Below, piece by piece: positions 6,064-17,395 of a stretch of DNA of 20,634 nt. The translations under genes were made by a program, and so were the position numbers. Every line of letters starts with the position of its first letter. The first letter of the stretch is position 1. This stretch comes from a virus: the IMG/VR virus record IMGVR_UViG_3300027801_000204, positions 1-20,634 of that record. The stretch is one strand, 5' to 3'. Under the pieces are notes generated by a model that worked only from the letters and a program-made list of their open reading frames with translations, was not told where the DNA came from and searched no databases.

Positions 6064-6255
6064 TTACTTCTTCCTAAGGTCTTTGATTATCTTAAACACA
6101 GTGAGGATACCAACAAGGAGGGCAATGGCCCAACTAGTCCAAATTCTAAAGCTCTCTCCATCGAAACTAGTGCCTAATTGAAAATTGGCATTCCACCAAG
6201 AAACTACATTTGCTCCGGCTATTTTTATATAATTATATGTCATGTGTTTGTTCAT
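6064..6255 (-). CDS. Small single-span membrane protein at the end of the lysis cassette
   Basis: This gene encodes 63 aa (59 if translation starts at Met5, ATG 6243). Residues 1-37 are polar with aromatic residues (VVSWWN). Residues about 38-56 (IWTSWAIALLVGILTVFKI) form one clear transmembrane helix, followed by the basic end KDLRKK, so the positive-inside rule predicts an inside C-terminus. Its ATG overlaps the endolysin stop (TAATG at 6257-6253), which couples it to the endolysin. It may be a second holin or antiholin, or an inner-membrane partner of the small lipoprotein at 6857-7036. It lacks the long periplasmic coiled coil of classical i-spanins, so the spanin idea is weak. Confidence 0.65.
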   Translation of the reverse strand: MNKHMTYNYIKIAGANVVSWWNANFQLGTSFDGESFRIWTSWAIALLVGILTVFKIIKDLRKK

Positions 6256-6854
6256 TATGCGCGGCGGTAGCCCCGAAATCTGCTTGTTGAATACTTCTTT
6301 ATATTCACTCCATTAGATTGGTTTCCCCCTAATACGTAAATGTAACCATTGCCAGCTAAACCAATAAATAGCCCCACATGACCTTGCCATGATCCTTGCT
6401 TCCCTCGATCAAATACAACGATGTCTCCCTTCTGTGGGTTCTCCGCCTTAGTTCCCCAATTAAGGAATGATTTAGCATTTGCTTTGCCTGTGCCTTCTAT
6501 TCCAGAAAGCTTGAGCATTTCGTTGATGAATATGGCGCACCATGCGATTTCCCCGTCATTTGTTGCCCAGGAAAACCACTTCTTAATCCAGCCTAGTATG
6601 GTTGGGTGTGATCCAATACCGGCCACCTCGTTAATGCCCACATACTCTTGAGCATGTATCAGGTGAGCAGGAATGGATTTCTTGCTAGGCGGGTTAAGGG
6701 AGCGATAGGACAACTGTAGGGCTCGGTTGGTGTTAGGGCCAAGTAGTCCATCCAACCCATTAGGAGAGAAGCCATGAGCCTCTAGTCCGTATTGCATGAA
6801 ATAAACCTGCAACTCCTTAAGTGTGTCAACGCTGGCCGGTATTGGTTTTTCCAT
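6255..6854 (-). CDS. Endolysin, TIGR02594-like cysteine peptidase/amidase with N-terminal peptidoglycan-binding region
   Basis: This 199-aa protein should cleave host peptidoglycan at lysis. Residues about 10-52 look like a peptidoglycan-binding repeat (GLDGLLGPNTNRALQ). Residues 60-199 match the TIGR02594 family, a CHAP/NlpC-P60-related fold. The catalytic Cys is C106 in EIAWCAIFINEML and the His is H159 in GHVGLFIG; the conserved ends YVLGGNQSNGVNIKKY and FRGYRRA are present. There is no signal peptide, so export should depend on a holin; the holin-like gene lies two genes upstream. ATG 6854 follows the lipoprotein stop by 2 nt. An AAGGAGG lies 13 nt before the ATG (6874-6868), inside the lipoprotein gene; it is the only strong Shine-Dalgarno match I saw near a start. 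Family call is firm; the exact bond cleaved is not determined. Confidence 0.88.
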   Translation of the reverse strand: MEKPIPASVDTLKELQVYFMQYGLEAHGFSPNGLDGLLGPNTNRALQLSYRSLNPPSKKSIPAHLIHAQEYVGINEVAGIGSHPTILGWIKKWFSWATNDGEIAWCAIFINEMLKLSGIEGTGKANAKSFLNWGTKAENPQKGDIVVFDRGKQGSWQGHVGLFIGLAGNGYIYVLGGNQSNGVNIKKYSTSRFRGYRRA

Positions 6855-7279: not shown

Positions 7280-9217
7280 TTAGGGTAAGGTTAATCCTGT
7301 TGCTGTTTCCCAGAGGTTTTTGAGTGCTAGGGTGAAGTCATCACTATCAGCTAGTGTCATGCCTGTTCCTGCAAACCACGCACCAAATTGGTCGTCAGTG
7401 AAACCTACGGGCGAGTCATTCACATTAACCGCCATTGTGTAAAAGTTCACAGTAGGTGTTGCGCCGCTAGCAGTGTAACTTTGGGAGACGAGGCTGGATG
7501 TTGACGATGAGTCTCGTTTTGAGATGAACGCATCGCCTGATAAATACGACACAACTAAAATACCCTCAAGCCCTGAGCTACCATCGTTGATCGTATCGCC
7601 ACCATTGATGGCATACAGACCACCACCGCTGGAGGTATTAAACCTGCATTGATTACTTCCCTCACGCGATGCAATTATGTTTTGACTAGCTCCTAGTTCT
7701 GTTCGTAGTAGTCCGCCCAAAATCACCGAGTCAGTAGTGACTCCGATTGCCGCTGGGTCAACTCCCACATCAAAATAACCAGTCGAGCCATCACCCTCTA
7801 CATATCCAGCCGAGTGAGTCACGCCACCATTAAACGTGCCAGTGGCAAGCGTAATCATGTCGATAGCATTTGCCGCTTCCACCGCCCAGATAGGTAGATA
7901 CATGCGCTTGAGTGACGTGTAGTAACCGTCTGATTTAGCCGCCTTGTAGAATGTGTTTAGTGCAGTTTCTTGAGTAGCTGACACTGTAGCTCCCGCCGTG
8001 CGAACATCTGCTATGTATGCCACCGCGTCAGTGTCTGTCCCGTAGTTAGGAAAAGCTGAGAAATCCGCCTCTACCACTGTCAGCCCTGTGAAGACACTAG
8101 CCTGAGTGTCGGCGGTGGTGATCATTGTGTTGATGTCTGAGATGAAATCTGCAACTGGTGTGCCTGATCCTGCCCCGCCGTAAGTCCACATGGTTACAGA
8201 CACAAACTCACCGTCAACAATCACCCCTGCTGGGTTGCCTGAGTCACCGCTTATTATATTTTCATGGAAAATGAGCCTGTCTAAGTCAGTTGGAGTCATG
8301 AAGTTACCGCCGCCTGTCCAGTCTATAATCAGGGCTTTTTCTTCCTGATCAAGTCCAATCGCTCCCGGTCTGTTGCTGCTATTCTCTACAAGATAATCTT
8401 CGTAGTCGGACGGCATTAGCTTACATGGTGTAATGCTAGATGGCAATGCTGAGTCTAGCACAGCCACTCTCAAGTCAGGGTAGTAAGGAGAATAGTCGGG
8501 ATGGTTCACCACTCCTGTGATGGTGCGCGTGAGGACAGTATTGTCATTAGCAACAAACCTCACGGTGTCGCCAATGTAAAGCGGGTAGTGTGACGCCATA
8601 AGCAGATGCTGTGCTGTGATAAGCGTTCCTGCTCTCTTGCTGCCACCTCTGCTATTCCAAGGAGAGGCGCAAGTGAGGTCCACATCGTCACACCATAGAT
8701 TAGTATTGCGAACGTAGGTAGATGTCACGTGATTCTGAGTGCTGTAAATGCCACCATTAGTAGCCATAGACATAGTGTCATCTATACGGCTGTCTATCTC
8801 GTTTGATACGTGTTCAGCGAGTGATCCGACTACGGCATTAGCATAGGATTCAGTATCTCCCTGAGTCTGATCTGCTAGGTTTAGGTCGATGCCGATTGTT
8901 ACACCGTTTTTAACTAGGACTCTGCATTGACCAGAGGCAACCCTAGTTATCACGCCATCTGATGCAATAGTTGCAATATCTGTATTTAGGCTTTCAAACG
9001 TGGCTTGAGTGCCAGTTACTAAAACGCTCCCGCCATTGTAGAATGTGCCACCGTTGTAAACGTCAAACACTGCATCATCATTAGTCACCGTAGTGCTAGT
9101 TGATCCGGTTAAGACAATCACCTCTGGACTATATGACACCGACAAGTTTGGCTCGTCCGCCAATACTGGCGGACGAAATGTGATTGCTGATGCGTTGTGT
9201 GTGAGAGTGAGTGCCAT
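7280..9217 (-). CDS. Tail adhesin/fibre with an embedded trypsin-like serine protease and a C-terminal lectin-like region
   Basis: This 645-aa protein looks modular. Residues about 30-112 resemble a bacterial Ig-like (BIG_2) domain (DIATIASDGVITRVASG). Residues about 190-350 match a chymotrypsin-fold peptidase: H210 in LITAQHLLMASH, D248 in YPDLRVAVL and S326 in ISGDSGNPAG stand in the order and spacing of a catalytic triad. Residues about 394-475 resemble a connector common in environmental phage tail proteins (DAVAYIADV, then FYKAAKSDGYYTSLKR). Residues about 470-645 look like a concanavalin/LamG-type lectin region (YVEGDGSTGYFDVG). No signal peptide is seen, as expected for a virion protein. 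It starts 4 nt after the fibre stop. Likely role: a receptor-binding protein that binds and cuts a surface protein, or cleaves itself during maturation. Domain calls are from motifs, not a search. Confidence 0.75.
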   Translation of the reverse strand: MALTLTHNASAITFRPPVLADEPNLSVSYSPEVIVLTGSTSTTVTNDDAVFDVYNGGTFYNGGSVLVTGTQATFESLNTDIATIASDGVITRVASGQCRVLVKNGVTIGIDLNLADQTQGDTESYANAVVGSLAEHVSNEIDSRIDDTMSMATNGGIYSTQNHVTSTYVRNTNLWCDDVDLTCASPWNSRGGSKRAGTLITAQHLLMASHYPLYIGDTVRFVANDNTVLTRTITGVVNHPDYSPYYPDLRVAVLDSALPSSITPCKLMPSDYEDYLVENSSNRPGAIGLDQEEKALIIDWTGGGNFMTPTDLDRLIFHENIISGDSGNPAGVIVDGEFVSVTMWTYGGAGSGTPVADFISDINTMITTADTQASVFTGLTVVEADFSAFPNYGTDTDAVAYIADVRTAGATVSATQETALNTFYKAAKSDGYYTSLKRMYLPIWAVEAANAIDMITLATGTFNGGVTHSAGYVEGDGSTGYFDVGVDPAAIGVTTDSVILGGLLRTELGASQNIIASREGSNQCRFNTSSGGGLYAINGGDTINDGSSGLEGILVVSYLSGDAFISKRDSSSTSSLVSQSYTASGATPTVNFYTMAVNVNDSPVGFTDDQFGAWFAGTGMTLADSDDFTLALKNLWETATGLTLP

Positions 9218-10569: not shown

Positions 10570-11727
10570 TTAACAAGCAGTTAGTCCAAGGTCGTTAGGG
10601 CAACGTAGGTGACGAATAGTAATGCCAAACTCAGTGTGACGAGGTCTGACAGCTGATCCGAGTGTTGCACGGAAGAATCCGTTCTTACCGTCAGGGTTAT
10701 CTGTGCGGTGAGCAATGTTCTTCCATTGGATTTCTCCAATATAGTTCTGAGCTGTGAAGCTGGCTTTATCCACATTAGAGATAGATCCAGGAACAAGACA
10801 GTCATAAACGCTCTTAACAAAGATCATAGTGTCTTCGTGGTCAGCGGCTACATAGTCAGGGTTCTCATCAGCAGCTGTTCCAGCGCCGGTGTCCACCCAA
10901 GGTTGACTTCTCACCCACTGAGTTCCACCAGAATCCCAGTCGTAACGTCTAGGGGTGTCGTCAATCATGTGAACAAAACCATTGTAAGTATGAGTGTAGC
11001 CCATACCAAGTAGTAGTTTGTCAGCTTGTGAAGACTCTCTGAAGTCAGTGCGGGTAGCAGCATCTTCCTTGATAAGCGCTCTTGATGTTTCCATTGAGCA
11101 AACTAGGGCAAAGATAGGCTGACCGTTAAGCATTGTAGCTGCGTCTTGACGGGCTCCATTACGCTGAAGGTAAGCATAGAAGTGATCTAGTGCTTTATTA
11201 GTCAGGATAGAAGTGGCCGGCTCAAGAGGAAACACATCTCCAGCAGCTTGGTTAGTTTCTGGAAGAGAAGCGTTGAGAACAACCTTGCGGTTGGACACCT
11301 TAGCATACCAGTCACGCTTGTAGTCAATCCAAATGTTACGGATGTTTTGTCCGAGCATGTCAACAACGTTGCGCATTTGCTCTTTCATTCTCCACTTAGC
11401 ACGTAGGTCATCAATACAGAAATCGAGAGTTTCGATAGCTGTGCTTTCCAAACTAACGGTTTGGCGAGTTTGATTAAACTGAATGCTAGTAGTTGGCGGA
11501 GTACAGATGTTGGTAGATCCATCAGCTGTAGCGTGGGCTTGCCAGGTTTGACCAGCACTCGGAAGAGTTCTTTCAAACGTGACGGCTTCAAACGAGTGAC
11601 CGATTTCGTCAGGCCACTGAGTTTTGTTAACCATGGAGATCCACGGTGAGCTTGGGTAGATCTTTTTGTCGATCTCTAGAGCTAGGGCTCCGGTAATTTC
11701 TTGTAGTTGATTTTCGATGTTAGGCAT
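10570..11727 (-). CDS. Major capsid protein
   Basis: This 385-aa protein should form the icosahedral shell. It follows the scaffold gene, as major capsid genes of HK97-fold phages do. The N-terminal region (residues about 15-70, with KKIYPSSPWISMVNKTQWPD then VTFERTLPS) resembles capsid proteins of environmental short-tailed phages. The C-terminal third is beta-rich (KNGFFRATLGSAVRP, then FGITIRHLRCP). There is no protease domain or signal peptide. Size fits an HK97-fold subunit without a long delta domain, consistent with the separate scaffold. The gene stands alone between two terminators with its own promoter candidate and a structured 200-nt leader, an arrangement suited to very high expression. 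ATG 11727 has leader CTATATAATAAT without Shine-Dalgarno. Confidence 0.8.
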   Translation of the reverse strand: MPNIENQLQEITGALALEIDKKIYPSSPWISMVNKTQWPDEIGHSFEAVTFERTLPSAGQTWQAHATADGSTNICTPPTTSIQFNQTRQTVSLESTAIETLDFCIDDLRAKWRMKEQMRNVVDMLGQNIRNIWIDYKRDWYAKVSNRKVVLNASLPETNQAAGDVFPLEPATSILTNKALDHFYAYLQRNGARQDAATMLNGQPIFALVCSMETSRALIKEDAATRTDFRESSQADKLLLGMGYTHTYNGFVHMIDDTPRRYDWDSGGTQWVRSQPWVDTGAGTAADENPDYVAADHEDTMIFVKSVYDCLVPGSISNVDKASFTAQNYIGEIQWKNIAHRTDNPDGKNGFFRATLGSAVRPRHTEFGITIRHLRCPNDLGLTAC

Positions 11728-13539: not shown

Positions 13540-13902
13540 TTAGCCCAAAATCCAATCTAGTGCAAAAGTGTCACTACTAGACGCCACCCAGTTATCAATA
13601 GATCCGTCTGGCTTCACAATCACCATTTGATTCTGGTAGTCTGGTGAAACACCCTCCAGCTGCATCCTATCTTTTACAGACTGAGGCAATGAGGACATCT
13701 TAGGGACTATATTAGCCGGAACCTTAGAGGGAACTTGTTTAAATGCATACATGCCTGTGCCGTTCCAACCTTCACGCTGGACATAGCCGCCATCTCTCAT
13801 GTGTTCAATCGCCTCACCAAAGGTGTGGGAAATGGTTTGCTTTAATGGCTTCGCAGGTGTTGCTGTTCCTACTGTATCTGGATTGTAATTATCGTTCTTC
13901 AT
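13540..13902 (-). CDS. tad2: Tad2-like (DUF2829) protein, candidate anti-Thoeris signal sponge
   Basis: This gene encodes 120 aa. Residues 27-120 carry the DUF2829 pattern in order: TFGEAIEHMRDGG (27-39), then REGWNGTGMY (43-52) and, near the end, NQMVIVKPDGSIDNWVASSSD (91-111, W105) and FALDWILG (113-120). DUF2829 is the family of Tad2, a phage protein known to sequester the cyclic ADP-ribose-type messenger of Thoeris immunity; some homologues bind other cyclic nucleotides. A polar 26-aa extension precedes the domain. The gene begins 7 nt after the portal stop and has the leader ATAACAAAACA, so it is part of the head-gene operon. Domain assignment is confident from motifs. Anti-defence activity is inferred, since many DUF2829 proteins are untested. 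Confidence 0.85.
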   Translation of the reverse strand: MKNDNYNPDTVGTATPAKPLKQTISHTFGEAIEHMRDGGYVQREGWNGTGMYAFKQVPSKVPANIVPKMSSLPQSVKDRMQLEGVSPDYQNQMVIVKPDGSIDNWVASSSDTFALDWILG

Positions 13903-13909
13903 TGTTTTG

Positions 13910-16300
13910 TTATGGTGTTCGTTTTATTTTGGATGTGCTGTCTAAATCCTTCAATGCTCTGTCTTGAGCTGCCTCCATTGTCTTAATCATAATCTCATGC
14001 TCAGACTTCTGCTGAGCGAGAGCCATCTTAAGCTCATGGTCTTGTGTTTTAATCTGCTGAGATAACTCAGCTTGCATAATTTTAATCTGAGCGTCTGCCT
14101 GAGCCTTAACCATAGCTGAGTCATTAGATGATTGCTCCTCACCTCCCTGTGGTTGCTCTTGTTGCTGCTCCTGCTGTTGGCGTTGTTGCTTCTGAATAGC
14201 TTTAAGGCCATTAGATACAATCTCACCAATTTGCTGGAGCGCTTGCTTAGCGTTGTTTAACTCAGCCACTGATTCGTCAGGAACCTGAGCCACTGAGAAC
14301 GTTTCAACAGCATGATCATAAACCGGCTTCATCTTCATCACTGCTTCAGTGAGTTCAATCTCTCCCTCTTCCACAGCCTGGTGTATTTGCCACAACCATT
14401 GAATGTGAATCTTAAGGTGCACCATAAAGTCTTCTCCGTTATCAATAGATATGGGTAGCCCAATAGAAAGCTGGTTATTCTCCATCTCTGCCACCTTAGC
14501 GTCAATAGGAGGTCTTTCCACTCCATCAAGAGGAACCAAATAGGCTGCATTTTCTTCACCAAACAAATTGATGGCTTTAAGTGCTGCAAACCTTCTGCGA
14601 CCGGCATCATCCATGTAAGGAAGTAATTCTGCTCCCTTAGCAAAGATAGCCTCCTTAGCCGCCTTGTCTCCAAGACCAAGAGGAACGTCAACCATAGCTA
14701 GATCAAAGTCTATGCCATTCTTAAGCACTTCCTCAGGGACACCCCGGGCCACACAAGCTGCCCTCATCTTACCGGCAGCCACACCAAAGTCAGCACCAGA
14801 CGCAGGTGAAGTAAATGCTCTTCTAGCTGAGTTAGATAAAAGCTGTCTCCATGGACGCATGAAAAGCCGCATTGCTGCGGCCGTGATGGCTGATAAGTAT
14901 TCAATCGCTGCACTAACTTCAAACTTAGAACGCCTGTCTGAGCCTTCTGTGAGAGTGCTAGCCATAGATGAGGCTGATGACATTCTGTTAAGCTGTTCCT
15001 TGAGCAGGTTCATTGCCGGAATAGCTGTCCTAGATAGGTCCGGGCTATGCTGGTTCTCTGCAATCTGTAAAGTGGAAGGGATGAGCCTTGCTGAGCCAGC
15101 ATGAATAATAGGAAGTGTGTCCAGGTTCTGCTCAGTGTTCACAACATAGGTTGTAGCCATGGCATCTCTAGCACTATCCATCATACCGCACTGGAGCAGG
15201 TTTGATCCCTGCACTTGAGGGAAGACAATGTGGCCTAGTCCTCTAATGGTGTGAATATTACCGTTATTACCAGTAAAGAAAGGAAAGATTTGAACTGCCT
15301 CACTCATGCTCTTGTAGGCCTTCTTCTTCCTAAACAACCAGTTGTCTGTGATCTTACCATTACCGTCATCCGGGCCAAGGTCAGAGCAAATGTAATGGCT
15401 GATTGTGCCATCATACTCTTCCACTCTTGCATTGATTATCTTAACTGATGCTGTTGGGCTGGCGGTATCAAAGTCATGAGCTTTAATTCTCTCTTCAATC
15501 TGCTCCGGAGACTCCTTATTATACTTATTATCACCAGCTCTAGCTGCATTAACAATGGCAGATCTCACTGCTTCAGGGTTCCAGCCTTTCTTCACTGCCT
15601 CAGCCTCGTTCTTAATGTTACCATACAAAGTAGTGGCTTCCATTTGCTCTTCTGAAGCTATTATTTGGATTGATGAAGAAGTGGCTTTCGATCTAGATGG
15701 CACTTTAAACTCACTTAGTCCACCTGCACTCCATCTCCAGTCATCACCGGGACGAAGGGAACTGAAACCAACACCGTGGGTGACAAATTGCTGAACAAGC
15801 TCAAGGAAGGTAAATTGAGACTCATCCCAACCTCTCACCATCCTAGCATATTCATTAGATATAATATCACTCCACTTCTGTCTATCAATAGGGGTGCCAT
15901 AACCCTGCTTAATTGGCAACTTGATCAATGATGCTGGGTTTGTAAATATGTCCAGGTAGTTGTTAACCACATTGTTAACCGATGCAGCTCCCTCACCAAA
16001 GTTAATATTGAATTGGCTGCCACGACCTAGTTGATCAAGTGTTTTCTGATTATAAGGAGGCTTATAGTCAACCATGGCCTGAACCTTAGCTCTATTACCT
16101 GAATTGGAGTAGTCATCAGTGAGCATGGTGCCATAGATAGATCTAAGCAATGCAGGTGAGCTCATTCTTTCCTCAGCAAAACTCTCTGGGCTAAAATCGT
16201 CTCGTAGGGCTGAGTCTAGGGAGTTTTTAGCGTCATCAATGGCTGAAAAGTCAGTTGATTTAGGGGCTCCCTTAAACATGTTTTTGGTTTCGGCTTTCAT
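13910..16300 (-). CDS. Portal protein
   Basis: This 796-aa protein should form the dodecameric ring through which DNA is packaged and ejected. Residues about 77-115 (VDYKPPYNQ, then GSQFNINFGEG) resemble portal proteins of environmental podoviruses. The central region is mixed alpha/beta. The C-terminal part has a Q-rich stretch (about 698-717) and a long charged helix (about 718-790), suited to a barrel or crown. It lies between terminase and scaffold genes. It is larger than many portals (400-700 aa), mostly through the C-terminal extension. ATG 16300 is 8 nt after the preceding stop. No separate small-head-protein domain was recognised. Identity rests on size, synteny and partial motif resemblance. 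Confidence 0.75.
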   Translation of the reverse strand: MKAETKNMFKGAPKSTDFSAIDDAKNSLDSALRDDFSPESFAEERMSSPALLRSIYGTMLTDDYSNSGNRAKVQAMVDYKPPYNQKTLDQLGRGSQFNINFGEGAASVNNVVNNYLDIFTNPASLIKLPIKQGYGTPIDRQKWSDIISNEYARMVRGWDESQFTFLELVQQFVTHGVGFSSLRPGDDWRWSAGGLSEFKVPSRSKATSSSIQIIASEEQMEATTLYGNIKNEAEAVKKGWNPEAVRSAIVNAARAGDNKYNKESPEQIEERIKAHDFDTASPTASVKIINARVEEYDGTISHYICSDLGPDDGNGKITDNWLFRKKKAYKSMSEAVQIFPFFTGNNGNIHTIRGLGHIVFPQVQGSNLLQCGMMDSARDAMATTYVVNTEQNLDTLPIIHAGSARLIPSTLQIAENQHSPDLSRTAIPAMNLLKEQLNRMSSASSMASTLTEGSDRRSKFEVSAAIEYLSAITAAAMRLFMRPWRQLLSNSARRAFTSPASGADFGVAAGKMRAACVARGVPEEVLKNGIDFDLAMVDVPLGLGDKAAKEAIFAKGAELLPYMDDAGRRRFAALKAINLFGEENAAYLVPLDGVERPPIDAKVAEMENNQLSIGLPISIDNGEDFMVHLKIHIQWLWQIHQAVEEGEIELTEAVMKMKPVYDHAVETFSVAQVPDESVAELNNAKQALQQIGEIVSNGLKAIQKQQRQQQEQQQEQPQGGEEQSSNDSAMVKAQADAQIKIMQAELSQQIKTQDHELKMALAQQKSEHEIMIKTMEAAQDRALKDLDSTSKIKRTP

Positions 16301-16308
16301 AGGTGGTG

Positions 16309-17181
16309 TTATTTAGATGATGCTATTTGAGCTTTAGTGCGTCTCTTAGCTCTTTTCTTTTTAGTGGCTTTCTTGGCGGCTTTCTTAGCCACCTTCTTAA
16401 CTGGCTTGTCTGGCTTCTCATACATTGAAGGCATGTTATCAGATGCACCCAAAGAAGCTTTAAGGTCCTCCTCAGACGTGTCACCAAATACAGGGAGCAC
16501 TAGTTCTGCAACAGCCACCTCTTCAGGTGCTGGCTCAGGAGCTTTAGCAAACGCATCCACCTGGGCTTTATCAACCGTAGATGTTTTAATGAATGGATAA
16601 TTGTCAGCGGATGCATGACAACCAAACTTCTTGAATTCCCAGCCAAGTCGGTTTAGGAGAATAGAGTCTTTAATGTATTTCTTGTAGTTGTAAAACACAC
16701 TAAAGAAATTAGCTGAATAACCTAAGTTACCACTGATCTCAGATGGTTGCTCTGCATACTTAATGCCAAGAGCGATTGCTTCACTCTGGTCAACTCGCAT
16801 AGCAGCAATAAAATCATCGGCCCAGTAGTCTTTATTCGGGGCCCACTCAGGATCAATATAAATCCCTGCGCCAAAGACCTGAAAGTTAGGCCAAGCCGTC
16901 ATAAAGCAGTAAGAGGTGAACTTGTGAACCTCTTCCAAATTATTTGGTGATGGCTTAAATTTAATAATTTCGACAAATTCGTCAAATACCTCCTTAGCGC
17001 GCTGGGTAAATGCCCTATATCGCTCCGTGTCACAGCTTGAAGAGGAAATAACCACTAGCCGCGAACGCAGCTGAGTTGGCTTATGCTTAGCACATGATTC
17101 AATCCATGCTGTTTGGTCTATCCCGGTGGCTTCCCCGCAATATGGCAGGACAATGTTTAGTGTTTCTTTAGTATCGCTCAT
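16309..17181 (-). CDS. Glycosyltransferase-like protein with a histone-H1-like basic tail
   Basis: This gene encodes 290 aa. Residues about 6-200 look like a GT-A-type nucleotide-sugar fold: an opening strand LNIVLPYCG, a second strand RLVVISSSS, and a later FGAGIYIDPEWAP (103-115) where such enzymes place the acidic metal-binding region. The canonical DxD is not obvious. Residues about 210-255 are an acidic/alanine-rich linker. Residues 256-290 are a tail in which 17 of 35 residues are K or R, with KKxAKK repeats as in histone H1-like proteins. The gene overlaps the preceding one by 14 nt and lies between terminase and portal, so it is made with packaging genes. A role in modifying or binding DNA or capsid is inference; the fold call is tentative. 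Confidence 0.5.
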   Translation of the reverse strand: MSDTKETLNIVLPYCGEATGIDQTAWIESCAKHKPTQLRSRLVVISSSSCDTERYRAFTQRAKEVFDEFVEIIKFKPSPNNLEEVHKFTSYCFMTAWPNFQVFGAGIYIDPEWAPNKDYWADDFIAAMRVDQSEAIALGIKYAEQPSEISGNLGYSANFFSVFYNYKKYIKDSILLNRLGWEFKKFGCHASADNYPFIKTSTVDKAQVDAFAKAPEPAPEEVAVAELVLPVFGDTSEEDLKASLGASDNMPSMYEKPDKPVKKVAKKAAKKATKKKRAKRRTKAQIASSK

Positions 17182-17395
17182 AATATGTTTCTTCTGTTTG
17201 GTCTAGTTCTTTGTCTATTCTCTTTCTGAGTATATCGAGGTATATGGACATCACTGAATATTGGTCCTCCACGTCTCTCTGATCATCATCAGACATGTTG
17301 TCAAAATTGTAACTATCCATAAAGGCAATGATTTCATCAACCTCAACCTCCATGTATTCGGCTTTCCTGCTTAACTGTGTTGTGTATGATTCCAT
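17168..17395 (-). CDS. Small acidic helical protein after terminase
   Basis: This gene encodes 75 aa, MESYTTQLSRKAEYMEVEVD onward, rich in D and E, probably two or three helices with no cysteine or membrane span. ATG 17395 lies 6 nt after the terminase stop, and the 3' end overlaps the next gene by 14 nt, so translation is coupled on both sides. No family is recognised. Its size and place would suit a packaging accessory. The overlap and clean coding frame support it as real. Confidence 0.65.
   Translation of the reverse strand: MESYTTQLSRKAEYMEVEVDEIIAFMDSYNFDNMSDDDQRDVEDQYSVMSIYLDILRKRIDKELDQTEETYYERY

Follow-up and report, generated by a model that had tools for sequence, protein, structure and literature searches.

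The window, by which we mean the whole stretch of viral DNA analysed here (20,634 nucleotides), encodes on its minus strand a protein of 645 residues, defined by the list of open reading frames and its translation, and another record of this virus carries the same peptidase gene. The first-pass annotation had described the product as a tail adhesin with an intact trypsin-like catalytic triad, and the three residues it named in order, His210, Asp248 and Ser326, all lie at exactly those positions in the reading frame (Table 1). The gene sits between one for a YadA-head fibre and one for a CHAP lysin, and upstream of it lie genes for a probable major capsid protein and a probable portal, both read from position, size and sequence and not from a profile match. 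Profile searches found no tail gene in the window, where the peptidase gene lies by capsid, fibre and lysis genes. The term "adhesin" is supported by gene neighbourhood, a YadA-head fibre gene here and fibre or tail genes in other phages and in prophages; for "tail" we are left with an inference. Two further small proteins are encoded in the window: one matches the crAss001_48 family, and the other has a Tad2-like (Thoeris anti-defence) domain, its gene lying within the structural set and flanked by the likely portal and scaffold genes.

Table 1. Coordinates of the peptidase gene, its parts and neighbours in the window, and of selected genes at related loci (positions are those of the window unless a locus label precedes them)
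Feature	Position	Strand	Basis or remark
Whole peptidase gene, 645 aa	7280..9217	-	Ig-like N-terminus, predicted S1-like peptidase domain, C-terminal extension
Probable Big (bacterial Ig-like) domain, residues ~23-130	8828..9151	-	
Predicted chymotrypsin-fold serine peptidase domain, residues ~150-395	8033..8770	-	Model, Foldseek, VIA-align, profile
Putative catalytic His210 (MASH)	8588..8590	-	46/46 domains; trypsin-like His register
Putative catalytic Asp248 (YPDLRVAVL)	8474..8476	-	46/46 domains; trypsin-like Asp register
Putative catalytic Ser326 (GDSGNP), preceded by invariant Asp325	8240..8242	-	46/46 domains; trypsin-like Ser register
C-terminal extension, residues 396-645	7283..8032	-	Absent from every other member
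YadA-head-repeat fibre gene, adjacent upstream, 363 aa	9222..10313	-	Pfam YadA_head, E 2.7e-17
CHAP lysin gene	6255..6854		
Probable major capsid gene	10570..11727		Upstream; position, size, sequence reading
Probable portal gene	13910..16300		Upstream; position, size, sequence reading
Small Tad2-like-domain protein	13540..13902	-	PF11195, E 6.7e-15
Small crAss001_48 family protein	17168..17395	-	PF21825, E 9.8e-9
Sec-signal-like N-termini	L031 90-2326; L057 1554-4118; L076 6124-8595		Heuristic scan
Sec-signal-like N-termini	L078 8268-10819; L080 7805-8671; L086 7217-11588		Heuristic scan
Small secreted-protein gene	L077 8100-8738; L082 7669-8307; L084 2331-2978; L094 7354-7941; L096 7732-8463		
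Divergent peptidase paralogues	L019 7488-8699 and 10013-11311; L023 3748-4995 and 6312-7610		Alternate with fibre genes
Subtilisin-like protein, 1524 aa	L028 7306-11880		PHROG 3677 "protease", E 1.9e-27

By predicted fold and catalytic register, the central domain is an S1-like peptidase of clan PA. An AlphaFold2 model built from residues 130-403 together with 15 relatives reaches a pLDDT of 90 and a pTM of 0.88, and a Foldseek search of the PDB with this model returned S1 peptidases throughout the matches listed, at E values of about 1e-8. Alignment to delta-chymotrypsin with VIA-align gave a Z score of 18.6 over 183 residues with an rmsd of 2.7, and a 17-row family profile reaches PDB trypsins by sequence at E 1.6e-4. 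The fold expected by the first-pass annotation is thus the one predicted, chymotrypsin-like and with the triad in catalytic register. The best structural match in a viral library is BFVD A0A6J7XEP5 (TM 0.79), from an uncultured Caudovirales phage.

Conservation of the putative catalytic site across the family is far beyond chance, since the triad and Asp325 alone are invariant (H210, D248, D325 and S326) among 46 domains whose median pairwise identity is 27%. Gly324 and Gly327, which complete the GDSGNP motif of the window protein, are kept in 42 of these domains, and in a small number of sequences the oxyanion loop differs ("LYDSGNP" in L025, "GGDSSNP" in L017). In a joint alignment the His, Asp and Ser are in register with those of ordinary secreted trypsin-like proteins; that alignment and the PDB profile match supersede a weak hhalign match of the profile to a single trypsin sequence (probability 1.2%, E 0.046), in which His and Asp were in register. 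The family was gathered with a profile that already conserves the triad, which introduces a small bias toward these residues, but a member with a strong score would not be hidden by the loss of one of them. The retention of all three residues in every family member agrees with what the first-pass annotation had proposed.

At the same time, we do not file the domain as an S1A trypsin, because it has no IVGG start, has no Asp189 and scores below the Pfam cut-off. No conserved IVGG activation start is found in the family or at the domain start where the structural alignment begins, and Arg170, considered as a substitute for the Ile16 N-terminus, was rejected: the structural alignment does not put it at that position, and 8 of the 46 domains lack it or have another residue in its place. 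The position six before Ser326, Asn320 in the window protein, is not Asp189 and varies across the family, and for this reason we claim no cleavage specificity. Against the Pfam Trypsin model (PF00089) the window protein scores 17.7 bits, under the gathering score of 20.6, and 3 of 16 family members match that model at E values up to 0.1. Likeness to the chymotrypsin and trypsin family (clan PA, family S1) therefore lies in the predicted fold, in the order and register of His, Asp and Ser and in the GDSGxP motif, whereas the departures are an identity of about 14-20% and fusion to phage fibre-type domains. PHROGs and NCBIfam hold no model of this family, and Pfam holds no usable one. In the open-licence literature we found no description of a fibre-borne S1 peptidase family; two T4-like Rhizobiaceae phages are mentioned in one review as having a trypsin-like serine protease (PMC10783043), and the word "trypsin" is absent from a review of jumbo phages that lists other virion peptidases (PMC7824862).

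The regions that flank the peptidase domain are of different standing. The Ig-like domain proposed for the N-terminal side draws a Pfam Big-like score of 18.7 bits at residues 71-104, below the cut-off of 27, which lends such a domain weak support. Residues 66-106 weakly match an S-layer protein (E 0.0042), the one PDB match of a single-sequence search, and the Ig-like region is all-beta in the full-length model, with a pLDDT of about 60-80. The lectin-like character proposed for the C-terminus found no support in profile, homologue, PDB or structure searches. The extension of about 250 residues is unique to the window protein among family members; it has no homologue or match in viral contigs, phages, PDB, Pfam or PHROGs, and residues 434-626 stay below a pLDDT of 50 in the full-length model, with no confident fold. 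A lectin or LamG identity was considered for it, and the Pfam, PHROGs, PDB, viral-contig, phage and structure searches all failed to confirm it.

What emerges around the peptidase domain is an un-named family whose members occur in phages unrelated to one another, in prophages of bacteria and in proteins that bacteria secrete. A tblastn search of a phage collection returned a single podovirus, MW202510.1. Its hypothetical protein UOF78081.1 shares 26% identity with the window protein, belongs to the same family by sequence and keeps the triad without the C-terminal extension; like A0A6J7XEP5, it is uncharacterised. Iterated profile scans of viral contigs found 6, then 25, then 26 loci. Contigs of T4-like, siphovirus-like, podovirus and large-phage type all contain members: L006 is a T4-like phage whose near-copies carry tail-sheath and terminase genes, L007 is a siphovirus-like contig of 67 kb, and L019-L026 are contigs of 80-160 kb. 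Most viral relatives are about 390-430 residues long and end in the peptidase followed by a D[FL]SxF tail. Fibre genes adjoin the family member in the window and in L007, L019, L023 and L024, and a module (MELADxTGxVP...GDGVTT) is common to the YadA-head fibre of the window and a fibre gene near the L007 peptidase. For some relatives a recognisable fibre neighbour is absent, and a count of fibre motifs across the viral loci (14 of 67 near genes, 10 of 163 far genes) used a pattern too loose to carry weight.

On the bacterial side, the 17-row profile, run over 84,980 species genomes, reached one Planctomycetota and one Verrucomicrobiota contig; an earlier genome scan with a 4-row profile gave no bacterial relatives, and no relatives were found on plasmids. 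In samples of the two phyla, 42 of 289 Verrucomicrobiota genomes match at E values up to 1e-3, with some twenty strong matches, as do 6 of 294 Planctomycetota genomes, two strongly; the weak ones probably reflect general kinship with trypsins. With prophage and chromosomal labels assigned by eye from neighbouring genes, seven Verrucomicrobiota prophages (L074, L075, L076, L078, L079, L080 and L086) have the peptidase gene in a cluster with genes for tape-measure, head, tail or fibre proteins. The chromosomal members L077, L082, L084 and L092-L096 are secreted proteins, often large, with the peptidase at the C-terminus and in some cases with DxDxDG repeats, while L056 and L091 are shorter Planctomycetota chromosomal proteins. 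No phage genes surround the secreted Verrucomicrobiota and Planctomycetota proteins that end in the peptidase module. A tree of 41 domains does not separate the copies of viruses, prophages and chromosomes, which are intermixed. It requires 8 changes of the virus label, at least 3 of which are forced by well-supported branches; the window sequence clusters with five other viral sequences (support 99/100).

A heuristic scan marked Sec-signal-like N-termini on the peptidase and/or neighbouring fibre-like genes in several Verrucomicrobiota prophages and in viral contig L031. Such an N-terminus is unusual for tail fibres, and the fibres of the window, L006 and L007 have none. Directly after chromosomal members comes a gene whose small secreted product, about 200-240 residues long, could be a substrate, a partner or an inhibitor.

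Overall, we believe that some phages probably carry a protein-cutting enzyme, as predicted from the catalytic site, on their attachment apparatus. For the window protein we lean, with some reservation, toward a fibre-borne extracellular serine peptidase that would act on a host-surface or matrix protein. The N-terminal Ig-like part would attach the protein either to the virion itself or to the adjacent YadA-head fibre, the C-terminal part may aid binding, and the peptidase would cut host-surface or extracellular-matrix proteins during adsorption, by way of a His210-Asp248-Ser326 charge relay and an oxyanion loop around Gly324-Ser326. Extracellular work is suggested because the module also forms the C-terminus of bacterial secreted proteins encoded away from any phage genes, and for the same reason digestion of surface proteins appears the better of the two roles put forward in the first-pass annotation, the other being self-processing of the fibre.

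Self-processing would make the domain a maturation protease that cuts its own polypeptide or the neighbouring fibre during assembly, after which the finished fibre could do without the activity. Unrelated fibre domains are known to cleave themselves, and the peptidase of the window protein is internal, so that cleavage around residue 395 would release the C-terminal extension; in most relatives, however, the peptidase is C-terminal with nothing behind it to release, no conserved cleavage junction is seen in the family, and the presence of the module in secreted proteins outside any phage context also speaks against this role, which we regard as unlikely. We see slightly less reason to place the protein off the virion altogether, as an effector, either made late and freed at lysis or exported, that would digest proteins in the surroundings or on neighbouring cells. 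The signal-like N-termini of some Verrucomicrobiota prophage members and their neighbours would fit export, as the adjoining CHAP lysin gene would fit release, but the window protein starts without a signal-like segment, as do L006 and L007, and the genes are placed in structural clusters beside fibre genes.

It is also conceivable that the chymotrypsin fold serves as a receptor-binding scaffold that no longer catalyses. Binding-only proteins with an S1 fold exist, and the altered oxyanion loops of L025 and L017 could be taken in the same sense. Nonetheless, we consider this very improbable, because a relic should have lost a catalytic residue somewhere, and the catalytic residues are the sole invariant columns in 46 domains, a point that the profile bias softens only a little.

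A broader proposal, which we advance tentatively and would not yet rely on, is that aquatic phages and Verrucomicrobiota prophages could commonly use a previously un-named family of fibre-borne serine peptidases for adsorption, that these have been exchanged repeatedly between phage fibres and secreted bacterial proteins, and that they may cut proteinaceous envelopes or matrices as depolymerases cut capsules. Known phage adsorption enzymes mostly target polysaccharide or peptidoglycan, and a conserved, widespread peptidase module in fibre cassettes would be their protein-directed counterpart. Like tailspike depolymerases and virion peptidoglycan hydrolases, the window peptidase would clear a surface layer during adsorption, but those enzymes have other folds, and the substrate expected here is protein, not polysaccharide or peptidoglycan. 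Protease-type activity is also found in phage fibre proteins that carry the Peptidase S74 chaperone, a self-cleaving C-terminal fibre chaperone with a Ser-Lys dyad; a Pfam search gave no S74 match in the window protein. The family would give a handle on the phages of poorly cultured Verrucomicrobiota and Planctomycetota, entry through proteinaceous surfaces would become testable by one point mutation, and many "hypothetical" phage proteins missed by public family libraries would gain a probable function.

The subtilisin-like phage proteases of PHROG 3677 (S8) are likewise serine proteases among phage fibre genes, but their fold is unrelated and their catalytic residues occur in a different order. 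In L028, a large protein of this kind directly follows the family member, so that the fibre region of this phage has adjacent genes for serine proteases of two unrelated kinds. In L019 and L023, two divergent paralogues of the peptidase alternate with fibre genes, as if each were paired with a different fibre.
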